Assembly (NCBI RefSeq): GCF_000302595.1
Contig: NZ_JH947125.1
Coordinates: 1,114,785-1,178,784, forward strand
DNA: 64,000 nucleotides
Source of the DNA: Pedobacter arcticus A12
GTDB lineage: Bacteria; Bacteroidota; Bacteroidia; Sphingobacteriales; Sphingobacteriaceae
Direction: 5' to 3'
The number at the start of each line of letters is the position of its first letter. Position 1 is the stretch's first letter. Under the pieces are notes generated by a model that was not told where the DNA came from, ran no database searches, and was given only the letters and a program-made list of their open reading frames with translations. A program made the position numbers and the translations under genes. This document shows, one piece after another, positions 44,217 through 48,684 of this stretch.

Positions 44217-45311
44217 ATGATTTACTTTTTTTACATAGTGTTCTTTTTCCTGATTTTACGTTTTACCGTAACACTGTTCAACTTTATATCAAACCCTAAA
44301 TTAACCAACTCCCCCAAAAAGTTTAACGATTTGGTTTCTATCTTAATCCCGGCCAGAAACGAGAAAGAGAATATCTTGCAGCTTTTGAAATCCATCCACC
44401 AACAAGATTATCAAAATATAGAAGTTATTGTTTTAGATGATGATTCGGAAGATAATACCTATCAATTGGTTGATAATTTTTGCGGAAACCACCCAAAATT
44501 TAAAATTGTAAAAGGCAAAAGCTTAGCAAAAGGTTGGTTAGGGAAAAACTTTGCCTGCCACCAACTAAGCCAGAAAGCAAAAGGAGATTGGCTGTTGTTT
44601 TTAGATGCCGATGAAGAAGTGAAAGACCACTTGATCAATAATACACTTTACCGAATGTACGTAGGTAAATTAAGCCTGCTCAGCTTATTCACTAACCAAA
44701 TCACAATCAGCCTTGGCGAAAAAACCGTAGTACCTTTAATGCATTTCCTGCTATTAAACTTGCTGCCCTTACGTTTAGTAAAATTATCTAAATTGCCATC
44801 TTTTGCGGCGGCTAGCGGGCAGTTTATGCTGTTTAAGGCTTCGGATTATAAGCAGTTCGAATGGCATCAAGCAGTAAAAAACAAAGTGGTGGAGGATATT
44901 GAGATTATGAAAAAAGTAAAGCAAGATGGTTTGCTTGGCGAAGCTTTATTGGCAAACGGATTTGTTTTTTGCCGGATGTACAAGAATTATAACGAGTGTT
45001 TAAGCGGATTTAGTAAAAACATATTGGCAGGCTTTAACAACAGCATTATTGCATTAATCATCTACATTATATTTGTCGTTTTTGGTCCCGTTTTTATCTT
45101 ACTCTTCGGGAATTTCCAGCTATTCTACTTCGCTTTGACACTTATCATTTTTAGCCGCATAATGATTTCTTATCTTTCGGGCCAAAATGTGTTTATCAAT
45201 ATTTTATATCATCCCATTCAAATGCTAAACTTACTTATCTTGGCTTTTTTGTCTATCAAACAATCGTTAGGCAGTAAAATAAGTTGGAAAGGCAGAACCA
45301 TCAACACATGA
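44217..45311 (+). CDS. Family 2 glycosyltransferase with C-terminal membrane segments (CruC-like candidate)
   Basis: 364 residues. One N-terminal hydrophobic segment (about 3-20), then a GT2 domain: VSILIPARNEKENI, VIVLDDDSEDNT, the DxD site in LLFLDADEEV, and the catalytic-base region in VVEDIEIMKKVKQDG. Two to three hydrophobic segments close the protein. Such GT2 enzymes with membrane tails can glycosylate membrane-embedded lipids; in the green sulfur bacterium Chlorobaculum a similar enzyme (CruC) adds glucose to a hydroxylated carotenoid. Its end overlaps the start of the hydratase gene by 4 bases (ATGA), which supports a shared transcript. Confidence 0.83.
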   Translation: MIYFFYIVFFFLILRFTVTLFNFISNPKLTNSPKKFNDLVSILIPARNEKENILQLLKSIHQQDYQNIEVIVLDDDSEDNTYQLVDNFCGNHPKFKIVKGKSLAKGWLGKNFACHQLSQKAKGDWLLFLDADEEVKDHLINNTLYRMYVGKLSLLSLFTNQITISLGEKTVVPLMHFLLLNLLPLRLVKLSKLPSFAAASGQFMLFKASDYKQFEWHQAVKNKVVEDIEIMKKVKQDGLLGEALLANGFVFCRMYKNYNECLSGFSKNILAGFNNSIIALIIYIIFVVFGPVFILLFGNFQLFYFALTLIIFSRIMISYLSGQNVFINILYHPIQMLNLLILAFLSIKQSLGSKISWKGRTINT

Positions 45312-45949
45312 AGTATTTAGAAAAAACAGGTTTATCAAAAATCTTTATCATCGTTTTTCACGCTGTAGGCTTTGTAGGTTTTACCTTACCTCACTTACAC
45401 GATTTTTTTATCTCATTTGTACCTTTCCATCTATTGTTGATGGCAAGTATCCTACTCATCAACCAAAAAGATTATAAAAAAGAATTTTGGCTGGGCTTAG
45501 GCTTTGTTTATTTGAGTGGCTATTTGGTAGAAGTAGTGGGCGTTTCTAGCGGTGCAATTTTTGGAACCTACGCTTACGGCGAAACATTAGGCATTAAGGT
45601 AGCGCAAGTTCCGCTGTTAATTGGCGTTAACTGGGTTATTTTGGTTTTCTGTGTGGGTGCAGTTTTAAAGAAGTATTTTAAACATCTCCGTAGTCTTAAA
45701 TCGTTAATCGGTGCTGCTATTCTGGTTTTTGTCGATTTTTTAATAGAACCCGTAGCCGTACGTTTTGATTACTGGAGCTGGGCAGATAGTACCATTCCAC
45801 TTCAGAATTACATCGCTTGGTTTTTTGTCTGCTTTATTTTACTGAGGGTTTATTACGAGCTAGATTTCCGTAAATCAAACCCGGTAGCTTTAACTTTATT
45901 AATTAGCCAAGTGCTGTTTTTTATTGGCTTAAATGTTACGGCACTCTGA
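45308..45949 (+). CDS. CruF-like carotenoid 1,2-hydratase
   Basis: 213-residue membrane protein from ATG 45308 (the longer frame begins at a TTG inside the glycosyltransferase gene). About seven hydrophobic segments, with conserved polar stretches such as EVVGVSSGAIFGTYAYGE, FLIEPVAVRFDYWSWAD and the internal LIGVNWVILVF. This is the pattern of the carotenoid biosynthesis protein family that includes CruF and the bacterioruberin hydratases, which add water to the terminal double bond of the psi end. A hydroxyl placed there can be the attachment point of a sugar. It is followed by ispH after a promoter-like box. Confidence 0.82.
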   Translation: MKYLEKTGLSKIFIIVFHAVGFVGFTLPHLHDFFISFVPFHLLLMASILLINQKDYKKEFWLGLGFVYLSGYLVEVVGVSSGAIFGTYAYGETLGIKVAQVPLLIGVNWVILVFCVGAVLKKYFKHLRSLKSLIGAAILVFVDFLIEPVAVRFDYWSWADSTIPLQNYIAWFFVCFILLRVYYELDFRKSNPVALTLLISQVLFFIGLNVTAL

Positions 45950-45961
45950 CTTAACTTTTTA

Positions 45962-45969
45962 TATTTTTG
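45962..45969 (+). promoter_or_regulatory. Internal promoter before ispH (-7 box)
   Basis: TATTTTTG, matching TAnnTTTG, 16 bases before the ispH ATG at 45986. No clear TTTG -33 element was found. It suggests that ispH can be expressed apart from the upstream carotenoid genes. Confidence 0.45.
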
Positions 45970-45985
45970 TAGAAAATGATATCAA

Positions 45986-46834
45986 ATGGAATATAACTTA
46001 CAAGTTTCTATTGACAACGATTCGGGCTTTTGTTTCGGCGTAGTTTATGCCATTGATATGGCCGAGGAAATTTTGGCAGAAGACGGCTATTTATATTGCT
46101 TAGGAGACATTGTCCATAACGATGAAGAAGTAATTAGACTCAAAGCAAAAGGTTTAAGAATTATCGATAACGAAGAGCTTAAATCTTTACATAACGAAAA
46201 AGTATTAATTAGAGCCCATGGCGAAGCACCAGAAACATATAAGGTTGCTTTAGCGAATAATATTATCTTAATTGACGCTTCATGCCCGGTAGTTTTAAAA
46301 TTGCAGAACCGTATAAAAACTACGCATGATGCAAAAGAGAAGGTGCTTATTTTTGGAAAGCATGGCCATGCCGAAGTAATTGGTTTACAAGGTCAAACAA
46401 ATAACGAAGCACTAGTTTTTCAGGATTTGGCAGAGCTTGACGGCGTAGATTTACCAAAGTCATTTACACTTTACAGCCAGACTACCAAATCAACCCATAA
46501 ATTTTACGACATCAAAAACGAACTGATTGCTCGTGGTCACGATGTTAAAGCTAACGACACCATTTGCCGTCAGGTATCTAACAGAGATAAAGAGCTTCCA
46601 AATTTTGTAAAGAAATTTGATAAAATTGTTTTTGTATCTGGTAAAAAATCATCAAACGGAAAAGTGCTTTACGAAGTTTGCAAAAAGCACAATCCAGCTA
46701 CTTATTTTATCAGCAAACCCAATGATTTAGAAACGGCAATGTTTAATAAAGGAGATAAAATTGGTATTTGTGGTGCAACGTCGACACCAATGTGGCTAAT
46801 GGAGCAGGTTAAACAGGTTTTAGAAACGTATTAA
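45986..46834 (+). CDS. ispH: 4-hydroxy-3-methylbut-2-enyl diphosphate reductase (IspH/LytB)
   Basis: Last enzyme of the MEP pathway, making IPP and DMAPP for carotenoids, quinones and other isoprenoids; [4Fe-4S] enzyme, 282 residues. The three cluster cysteines fit GFCFGVVYAI (N-terminal), DASCPVVLKL (about residue 98) and DTICRQVSNRD (about residue 193). The active-site glutamate lies in the region of LYSQTTKS. Full length. It sits inside the carotenoid cluster, upstream of a palindromic repeat and the ketolase gene, so precursor supply is linked to pigment synthesis. Length and motifs leave little doubt about identity. Confidence 0.96.
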   Translation: MEYNLQVSIDNDSGFCFGVVYAIDMAEEILAEDGYLYCLGDIVHNDEEVIRLKAKGLRIIDNEELKSLHNEKVLIRAHGEAPETYKVALANNIILIDASCPVVLKLQNRIKTTHDAKEKVLIFGKHGHAEVIGLQGQTNNEALVFQDLAELDGVDLPKSFTLYSQTTKSTHKFYDIKNELIARGHDVKANDTICRQVSNRDKELPNFVKKFDKIVFVSGKKSSNGKVLYEVCKKHNPATYFISKPNDLETAMFNKGDKIGICGATSTPMWLMEQVKQVLETY

Positions 46835-46840
46835 TTATTT

Positions 46841-46954
46841 GGGCGCTTTTCCGCTAACTGCGGAACCGGGCTTTCCGCTCATACGGTTTTGCCAAAACAC
46901 AAGCCAACCACACGGCCTTATTCAAAGGCCGGTATCCGCTTCTATCCCTAACGC
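46841..46954. repeat. Palindromic repeat element between ispH and crtW
   Basis: GC-rich block of about 114 bp starting 6 bases after the ispH stop. It has stems such as TTCCGC-TAACT-GCGGAA (46849-46865) and GGCCTT-ATTCA-AAGGCC (46915-46931), and the recurring pieces TTTCCGCT, TATCCGCTTC and CTATCCCTAACGC. It reads in one open frame on the + strand, which artificially lengthens the ketolase ORF. The pattern is familiar from Bacteroidota intergenic repeats; the copy number in this genome cannot be told from here. Confidence 0.7.
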
Positions 46955-46982
46955 AAATTATCATTATTATAAATATTATAGC

Positions 46983-47675
46983 TTGAAAAACAATAACGGA
47001 ATATATATGGCTATGCTAATCATCTTTTTATGGATGCTTAGTATTACTATGTTGATGCGTTTCGATTTCAGCTTTTCAAATCCTTTGATTTACATTTTTG
47101 TGTTGATACAAATGCATTTATATACCGGGCTTTTTATCACCGCACATGATGCAATGCATGGCACTGTAGCGCCGGCAAACAAAAAGCTAAATAATTTTAT
47201 TGGTCAGCTTTGTACTTTGTTTTACGCGGTTTTTCCTTTTCAAAAATTAAATAGAGAACACCATAAGCACCATAAATTTGTGCATACCGCAGAAGATCCG
47301 GATTATTATGAAGGCAACTTTTTCAAATGGTATTTTCAGTTTATCAAACAATACCTCAGCTGGTGGCAAGTGGTAGCAATGGCTATTATTTACAACATTT
47401 TAAAAATTTACATTCCAGAAAAAAATCTTTTGATGTTCTGGGTTATACCATCCTTGTTAAGTACGCTGCAGCTATTTTATTTTGGCACTTATTTGCCACA
47501 CAAAGGCGAACATCAAAATATTCATCATTCAAAAACACAGTCAAAAAATCATATATGGGCTTTCTTTACCTGCTACTTTTTTGGGTATCATTATGAGCAC
47601 CACGATTCCCCAGGTACGCCTTGGTGGAAACTTTGGCAGGTAAAAGAAAATATTACAGATACAGATAATGGGTAA
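46983..47675 (+). CDS. crtW: Beta-carotene ketolase-like membrane desaturase (CrtW)
   Basis: Membrane di-iron enzyme of about 230 residues. Three histidine boxes are typical of CrtW and related fatty acid hydroxylase/desaturases: HDAMHG (first), REHHKHHKF followed by HTAEDPDYY (second), and HYEHHDSPGTPWW (third). The third, with its PWW end, is particularly like CrtW. It would add a keto group to the ring of a carotenoid. I place the start at TTG 46983 (MKNNNGIYMAM), since the upstream frame to 46839 is repeat-derived; ATG 47007 is the alternative (222 residues). It overlaps hemH by 8 bases, so the two are probably translated together. Confidence 0.83.
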   Translation: MKNNNGIYMAMLIIFLWMLSITMLMRFDFSFSNPLIYIFVLIQMHLYTGLFITAHDAMHGTVAPANKKLNNFIGQLCTLFYAVFPFQKLNREHHKHHKFVHTAEDPDYYEGNFFKWYFQFIKQYLSWWQVVAMAIIYNILKIYIPEKNLLMFWVIPSLLSTLQLFYFGTYLPHKGEHQNIHHSKTQSKNHIWAFFTCYFFGYHYEHHDSPGTPWWKLWQVKENITDTDNG

Positions 47676-48684
47676 AAAAGGAATTCTATTGGTAAATCTG
47701 GGTACACCAGATAGTCCTTCAACGGCAGATGTAAGAAAATACCTCGGTCAGTTTTTAATGGACGAACGCGTAATTGATATCAACGCTGTTAGTCGTACAA
47801 TGTTGGTAAAAGGGATTATCGTTCCATTCCGTGGACCAAAGTCTGCCAAAATCTATAAAGAAATCTGGACAGAAGAGGGTTCTCCTTTATTGATTTATGG
47901 CAACAGCGTTCGTGATGCCGTTGCCGAAAAATTGGGTGGTGATTATCACGTTGAATTGGCAATGCGTTACCAATCTCCATCAATCCCAGATGCGTTAGAA
48001 AGGTTAAAGCAAGCAAAGGTAGATAGCATTAAAGTGGTTCCTTTGTTTCCACAATATGCTTCAGCATCAACCGGATCGGTACATCAATTGGTTATGGAAA
48101 TTGTGAGTAAATGGCAGGCAATTCCAGCCTTAAGCTTTATAAACAGCTATTATGATCATCCGGGGATGATTAAGATTTTTGCAGACAATACCCGGAAATA
48201 TCTTGATCAAAAGTGGGATCATATTTTATTCAGTTTCCACGGAATCCCACAACGGCAAATGCGTAAAGCCGACGTTTCTGGCGAGCATTGCTTAAAGGTA
48301 GAAAACTGTTGTGCTACACTTACCGAAAACAATAAATTCTGCTACTCGGCACAGTGCCATAATACGGCACAATTAATTGCCAAAGAATTAAACTTAACCA
48401 ATCAAGATTATACGCTTTGCTATCAATCTCGTTTAGGAAACGATCCTTGGATGCAACCTTACACCAGTGTTGTACTTAAAGATTTAGCCGAAAAAGGTGT
48501 TAAACGTTTGTTGGTTTTATGTCCGGCTTTTGTTGCCGATTGTTTGGAAACGCTTTACGAGATTTCGGTAGAGTACCAAGAAGAATTTGTTGAACTGGGT
48601 GGCGAGAAAGTTCAATTGGTGGAAAGCTTAAATGATAATCCAGCTTGGATTGAGGTTTTAGAAGATATCATCTTGAATAAATAA
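47668..48684 (+). CDS. hemH: Ferrochelatase (HemH)
   Basis: 338-residue enzyme that inserts Fe2+ into protoporphyrin IX, the last step of heme synthesis. Motifs are LVNLGTPDSPSTADVRKYL at the N-terminus, the active-site histidine in FSFHGIPQRQMR (about residue 195), and a cysteine-rich segment after it (GEHCLKVENCCATL, with QCHNTAQ) of unknown meaning. Near the C-terminus CPAFVADCLETLYEI, with the catalytic glutamate, is also typical. Full length. Its ATG lies inside the last codons of the ketolase gene, and the toxin-antitoxin pair follows. No other heme gene is in the window. Confidence 0.96.
   Translation: MGKKGILLVNLGTPDSPSTADVRKYLGQFLMDERVIDINAVSRTMLVKGIIVPFRGPKSAKIYKEIWTEEGSPLLIYGNSVRDAVAEKLGGDYHVELAMRYQSPSIPDALERLKQAKVDSIKVVPLFPQYASASTGSVHQLVMEIVSKWQAIPALSFINSYYDHPGMIKIFADNTRKYLDQKWDHILFSFHGIPQRQMRKADVSGEHCLKVENCCATLTENNKFCYSAQCHNTAQLIAKELNLTNQDYTLCYQSRLGNDPWMQPYTSVVLKDLAEKGVKRLLVLCPAFVADCLETLYEISVEYQEEFVELGGEKVQLVESLNDNPAWIEVLEDIILNK

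Follow-up and report, generated by a model that had tools for sequence, protein, structure and literature searches.

In Pedobacter arcticus A12, genes encoding HMB-PP reductase (ispH), a beta-carotene ketolase-like protein (crtW) and ferrochelatase (hemH) have been located in a window of 64,000 nt, the whole stretch of DNA analysed here. Together with an HpnB/CruG-like glycosyltransferase and a CruF-like protein, they all run in one direction within 44217-48684. The 263.5-bit match of crtW to NF045690 falls under the equivalog cut-off of 350, and the substrate of the ketolase is thus a presumed one. The 8-nt overlap between hemH and the end of crtW suggests that translation of the two may be coupled. 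The spacer between ispH and crtW, now 148 nt, contains a GC-rich block with several recognizable parts (Table 1).

Table 1. Genes and parts of the repeat at the ispH-crtW junction (positions in the window).
Feature	Position	Strand	Basis
ispH (HMB-PP reductase)	45986..46834	+	NCBIfam NF002187, 352.9 bits (cut-off 276); LYTB; its stop codon precedes the element by 6 nt
False 48-codon extension of the crtW frame	46839..46982	+	Open reading frame list; extension absent from the 25 other crtW loci
Flavo-1-like structured repeat	46841..46954	-	RF01705 match and genome-wide copies; minus is the presumed folding strand
Terminal stem, 5' arm GCGCT	46843..46847	+	Partner AACGC 46950-46954; 4/5 pairs in the window copy; covariation among 47 short-type copies
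Variable hairpin 1 (TTCCGC taact GCGGAA)	46849..46865		Sequence and fold
Stem 2, 5' side GGG	46868..46870	+	Pairs with CCC 46946-46948; compensatory change in 219 copies and 45-row alignment
Conserved internal-loop arm 1 (GCTTTCCGCT)	46870..46879	+	Alignments
Exchangeable tip, CATAC...GGTAT type	46880..46935		Holds hairpins 46886-46898 and 46913-46931; tip exchange in sister pair
Conserved internal-loop arm 2 (TATCCGCTTCTATC)	46933..46946	+	Near direct repeat of arm 1; alignments
Terminal stem, 3' arm AACGC	46950..46954	+	Sequence; covariation in short-type copies
crtW (beta-carotene ketolase-like), start TTG 46983	46983..47675	+	NF045690 CrtW, 263.5 bits, E 1.6e-78; start conservation
hemH (ferrochelatase)	47668..48684	+	TIGR00109, 278.3 bits (cut-off 124.6); overlaps crtW end by 8 nt

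The automatically called reading frame of crtW begins at TTG 46839 and remains open through the block, which adds 48 codons before TTG 46983. A preliminary description of this DNA had regarded these residues as a false N-terminus, and comparison with relatives of the window agrees: in all 25 other crtW loci an in-frame stop codon occurs no more than 40 codons upstream. The alternative, a genuine N-terminal extension of CrtW, is compatible with the open frame and is extremely improbable in view of these stops, of conservation that begins only at the position of TTG 46983 (26 loci) and of the nature of the block as a dispersed intergenic repeat; a coding extension was rejected on comparison with the 25 loci. 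The contrary case named in the same description, an element absent elsewhere and conserved within CrtW, does not apply, as copies occur genome-wide and the 25 other loci are free of the extension. Two possible starts had been proposed, of which TTG 46983 has stood and ATG 47007 is disfavoured. The residue aligned with ATG 47007 is other than methionine in 20 of the 26 loci (window and relatives), and in every one of the 26 a start codon is found 7-17 codons upstream of that position; six relatives from the same genus (loci L076-L081) retain TTG at the exact place it has in the window (codon -8). Start conservation and the upstream in-frame stops of the relatives' loci thus support TTG 46983 as the true start of crtW, where its annotation should begin. 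The repeat is predicted to contribute nothing to the ketolase protein.

A palindromic repeat had also been placed at 46841-47006. A GC-rich, partly palindromic block that recurs in the genome does lie between ispH and crtW, but its limits are narrower: the repeat proper comprises 46841-46954, and is followed by an AT-rich leader (46955-46982, 11% GC) and then by coding sequence (46983-47006). The GC content of the block is 55.3%, compared with 37.5% for the whole window, and very few 114-nt windows (0.016%) are as GC-rich. Its palindromic portions are the hairpins at 46849-46865, 46886-46898 and 46913-46931 and the terminal stem, outside of which the flanks ATTT (46837-46840) and AAAT (46955-46958) are also complementary. 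The exact words given in the preliminary description, searched inside the window alone, did no better than chance, and the case for a repeat is therefore made by the genome-wide search. RNA folding of 46835-46960 gave -34.9 kcal/mol (z -2.33). Fold energies of a typical single copy are unremarkable and not decisive; the structural case is built on covariation and non-canonical pairs.

A hairpin in this position might act locally, as an intrinsic terminator or attenuator separating ispH from crtW-hemH, and the transcript would indeed contain hairpins between the two. Such a role is improbable. A search for GC stems followed by a T run gave none on the plus strand and one weak site on the minus strand, and an intrinsic terminator was rejected for lack of a plus-strand site. 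In addition, the ispH-crtW junction occurs without the element in relatives, and other copies of the element occupy both divergent and convergent spacers.

A BLAST search of the block against its own genome returned 42 places at E<=10 and 15 at E<=0.001, both counts including the block itself. Sibling loci in this genome match the Rfam family Flavo-1 (RF01705). With up to 150 candidates scored, 71 RF01705 matches were obtained at E<=0.1, 54 of them above the cut-off, and the best sibling copies reached up to 61 bits. None of the 15 strong BLAST places overlaps any of these 71 matches, and at least 86 copies are thus present in 4.23 Mb. The search for related blocks proposed in the preliminary description was accordingly positive; that description had missed both the relationship to Flavo-1 and the covarying fold. 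Two loci at contig ends (L029 and L030, contigs C5 and C3) carry a longer variant of the element within an inverted duplicated segment, which probably broke the assembly there.

The window as a whole contains no Rfam match at the gathering cut-off. When 211 nt were searched alone, the window copy matched RF01705 at 46860-46959 on the minus strand with 17.8 bits (E 0.19), below the gathering cut-off of 42 bits, and it is for this reason filed as a divergent relative and not as a strict member of Flavo-1. The cmscan alignment covers model positions 1-76, with four columns marked for non-standard pair partners. The loop arms and paired positions of RF01705 are present in the window copy, and the anchors and the stem-2 pairing are common to 219 copies. 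The block falls in a divergent subfamily of Flavo-1 and is in minus-strand orientation. Tips of the CATAC type were found in 15 of 45 copies from its own genome and in none of 174 copies from elsewhere; these other copies were gathered with the Rfam model and a pattern favouring T-rich tips, so that CATAC tips look private to this genome but are not claimed to be so.

Read in the orientation of the window, a copy consists of a foot GGGCG(TT), then either a variable side hairpin or TTTAAC as a short spacer, the 5' side of stem 2 and the arm GCTATCCGCT, followed by the tip, the arm TCCGCTNCWATC, the 3' side of stem 2 and a foot AACGC. Copies were anchored by the sequence of the loop arms only, and pairing of the flanking bases was then scored. 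In a first pass, stem 2 was paired in 106 and 109 of 114 copies. In a stricter set, both variable pairs were Watson-Crick in 210 of 219 non-redundant copies, compared with a mean of 48.3 and a maximum of 73 in 5000 shuffles. Nine complementary combinations were represented (GG/CC 72, AC/GT 50, CC/GG 44, CT/AG 16, AG/CT 10, CG/CG 9, CA/TG 6, GC/GC 2 and GT/AC 1); the covariation counts are uncorrected for relatedness, and stem-2 combinations do recur within single genomes. In one intergenic region, three species have three different stem-2 classes (AC/GT in L182, AG/CT in L292 and CT/AG in L107).

An alignment of 45 rows, drawn from 126 short-tip copies with at most seven rows per stem-2 class, had 88.5% of its cells paired. 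After shuffling this value was 67.4%, none of 500 shuffles reached 88.5%, and slid controls remained at or below 59%. The central pair inside the internal loop covaries in the same 45 rows (C-G in 29, T-A in 12, unpaired in four). The terminal stem of 47 short-type copies has T-A in 42 and C-G in five at one pair (47/47), and G-C in 36 and A-T in seven at another (43/47). New here are the terminal stem and the second stem with strong compensatory change, which enclose a conserved two-armed loop whose central pairs covary.

The strand that folds can be approached through mismatches. At four pairs in 219 copies, 27 wobble-type mismatches were found on the Flavo-1 strand and two on the window strand, spread over several genomes and stem-2 classes. 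This asymmetry points to one folded strand, either RNA or single-stranded DNA; a cruciform gives no reason for it, and a sequence preference of a protein could mimic it. Crude ORF calls around 100 copies placed 27 in sense and 32 in antisense orientation, 17 between divergent and 13 between convergent genes, and 11 overlapping an ORF, with 89 of the 100 contexts being intergenic. A fixed-strand mRNA element or a terminator should not show such a mixture of orientations. The passage on Flavo-1 in a transcriptome study of F. psychrophilum likewise gives its matches without a preferred orientation to genes (PMC9723704). It is on these two grounds that a reading as a DNA repeat is favoured. A bias towards one replication strand was not found (49 runs, 47.2 expected, P 0.70).

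The same kind of sequence had been suspected in other Bacteroidota, and it is indeed present there. RF01705 matches were found in 51 of 100 relatives, with counts from one to at least 42 per genome, and in 38 of 247 genomes (22 of 122 genera) of a phylum sample; at most 42 and 18 candidates per genome were scored in the two sets, respectively, and the top counts are thus lower bounds. Among the matches listed, a pattern scan gave Flavobacterium, Chryseobacterium, Polaribacter, Pedobacter, Chitinophagaceae and Bacteroidales and, outside Bacteroidota, metagenome-assembled genomes (MAGs) of Spirochaetales and Leptospirales. Flavo-1 has already been noted in spirochaetes. Five spirochaete MAGs contained 11, 86, 138, 140 and at least 150 copies. 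The repeat thus occurs in Bacteroidota and Spirochaetota in patchy numbers, from zero to 150 or more per genome. Carriage by plasmids or phages was rejected on a single query each, with no match. A few viral contigs (L426-L433; seven and one pattern matches) carry the 3' arm of the element, in what may be viral or host DNA.

In one genome, copies of up to 94% identity occur at loci whose flanks are unrelated. In 15 other genomes of the genus that contain crtW, the ispH-crtW junction is empty in ten and holds the element or a remnant in four, and crtW does not adjoin ispH in one (G005). The four consist of an element with a different tip (G017), a shortened element (G011) and two remnants (G004 and G006). 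At the G011 junction (L080), the shortened element adjoins a tandem expansion of a second repeat word, GAGCGGAGTCGAAGG.

An orthologous element in G004 and G006 is identical at 52 of 53 positions of its base and differs in its tip, where G006 has a GAGCGGAGTCGAAGG-type repeat. Further, nine of 28 occurrences of this word among 69 loci of the own genome lie inside element tips, and the word also sits inside the tip at L297. The apex is thus a freely exchangeable hairpin, and copies are scattered through intergenic DNA with no regard to the direction of genes. G004 and G006 have in common all three elements of one 20-kb stretch, at approximately 93% identity, so that no transposition event has been caught in this pair. 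Turnover of the element is slow. Neither an exact empty site nor a target duplication was recovered from the 20-kb stretch of the two genomes or from more distant pairs, which align too poorly to yield one.

The main rival explanation takes Flavo-1 as Rfam does, as a structured non-coding RNA that might possess a promoter of its own or act within mRNA of either strand; the window copy would then be a divergent member. It is suggested by the curated Rfam family, by the strand-specific, wobble-tolerant fold with strong covariation and by conservation of the element base, which in a few orthologous pairs is about equal to or higher than that of nearby intergenic DNA. We nevertheless consider it rather unlikely, since copies favour neither orientation (27 sense, 32 antisense) nor any promoter or terminator position, and their number varies from zero to over 100 among the genomes searched.

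Movement as a REP/BIME by a RAYT (Y1 HUH transposase), as in Proteobacteria, would fit a short, palindromic, intergenic and multi-copy element of which one strand folds. A passage of PMC6006769 also describes a tnpA-REP subclass of Bacteroidetes with 'atypical secondary structures' and copies elsewhere in the genome. The genome of A12 does contain RAYT-like Y1 genes, but the four inspected (L071, L072, L073 and L074) are flanked by repeats of their own (CCGCTAGTGCGAGCTTGTAGCTCGTTCT, TTCGACATGCCCTGCGGAACAT and CGCAGGGTCCTCTGCGAGAGACCCTGC types) and not by the element, which indicates that several independent REP systems coexist. Y1_Tnp had no match in two copy-rich genomes (G051 with 34 copies and G069 with 26), and no element was found in 40 Y1 loci (126 kb) with a strict regex that misses part of the copies. 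Ownership by RAYT was rejected on these three findings, movement by such an enzyme has little probability, and the element does not require a RAYT transposase in cis. Clustering of 674 neighbour ORFs gave no recurrent neighbour gene; the top clusters were unrelated, of housekeeping type and without a transposase. Five IS200-like genes of the same genome (L065-L069), with equal Y1_Tnp scores and length (151-codon frame), probably represent a single insertion sequence that was copied recently.

We therefore propose, with a probability of roughly 0.55, that the block is a dispersed intergenic REP-like hairpin repeat of a divergent Flavo-1 subfamily, acting as single-stranded DNA. The selected entity would be a single strand in Flavo-1 orientation with a purine-rich, probably G.A-rich, loop, folding as DNA in the manner of REP or IS200-type elements. 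The family may spread slowly in trans through a putative single-strand DNA enzyme, and its apex may accept other repeats. At the ispH-crtW spacer, the element would have been inserted or inherited, and would place hairpins in the ispH-crtW-hemH transcript.

A literature search, in which most matches were judged from their listings, gave no paper treating Flavo-1 as a DNA repeat. That Flavo-1 itself should be re-read as single-stranded DNA is what we infer at close to even odds. A broader proposal is more tentative: Flavo-1 may comprise not an RNA family but mobile single-stranded DNA hairpins in two phyla (Bacteroidota and Spirochaetota), independent of RAYT, with a strand-specific putative enzyme, a recognition loop rich in G.A and an apex that can be swapped and accepts other repeats. 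If so, Rfam has listed a DNA element among RNAs, annotation pipelines err in many genomes when they call its copies sRNA genes, and two phyla harbour a strand-specific element of a new kind. The reading as a DNA repeat is open to direct test through the covarying stems, the conserved loop and those culturable species that are rich in copies.

Several known systems resemble this element in part. In integron attC sites a single folded strand matters and the apex is variable. Both would hold for the element, although no integron array or integrase context was noticed for it. Like MITEs, it is short and dispersed with inverted ends (about 5 bp), but no parent transposon was found, no target duplication was recovered from the genome pairs compared, and its interior fold is under selection. 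It shares with the REP/BIME of RAYT (TnpA-REP) an intergenic, palindromic, multi-copy nature, the folding of one strand and indifference to orientation. It differs in that some copy-rich genomes are without a RAYT and none was found adjoining copies, in having two repeated loop arms and a much larger variable apex, and in its feet, which, by eye in 47 short-type copies, read GGGCG...AACGC with variants and are without the GTAG or CGTC tag named in PMC3733652. Closest is Flavo-1, with which the window repeat shares the two-armed internal loop, the pairing scheme and the strand (RF01705; Weinberg et al., 2010; PMC2864571). The window copy is set apart by its score (17.8 against 42), by the CATAC...GGTAT tip of its subfamily and by a terminal stem and side hairpin outside the part of the model shown as paired, and it behaves as a dispersed DNA repeat.
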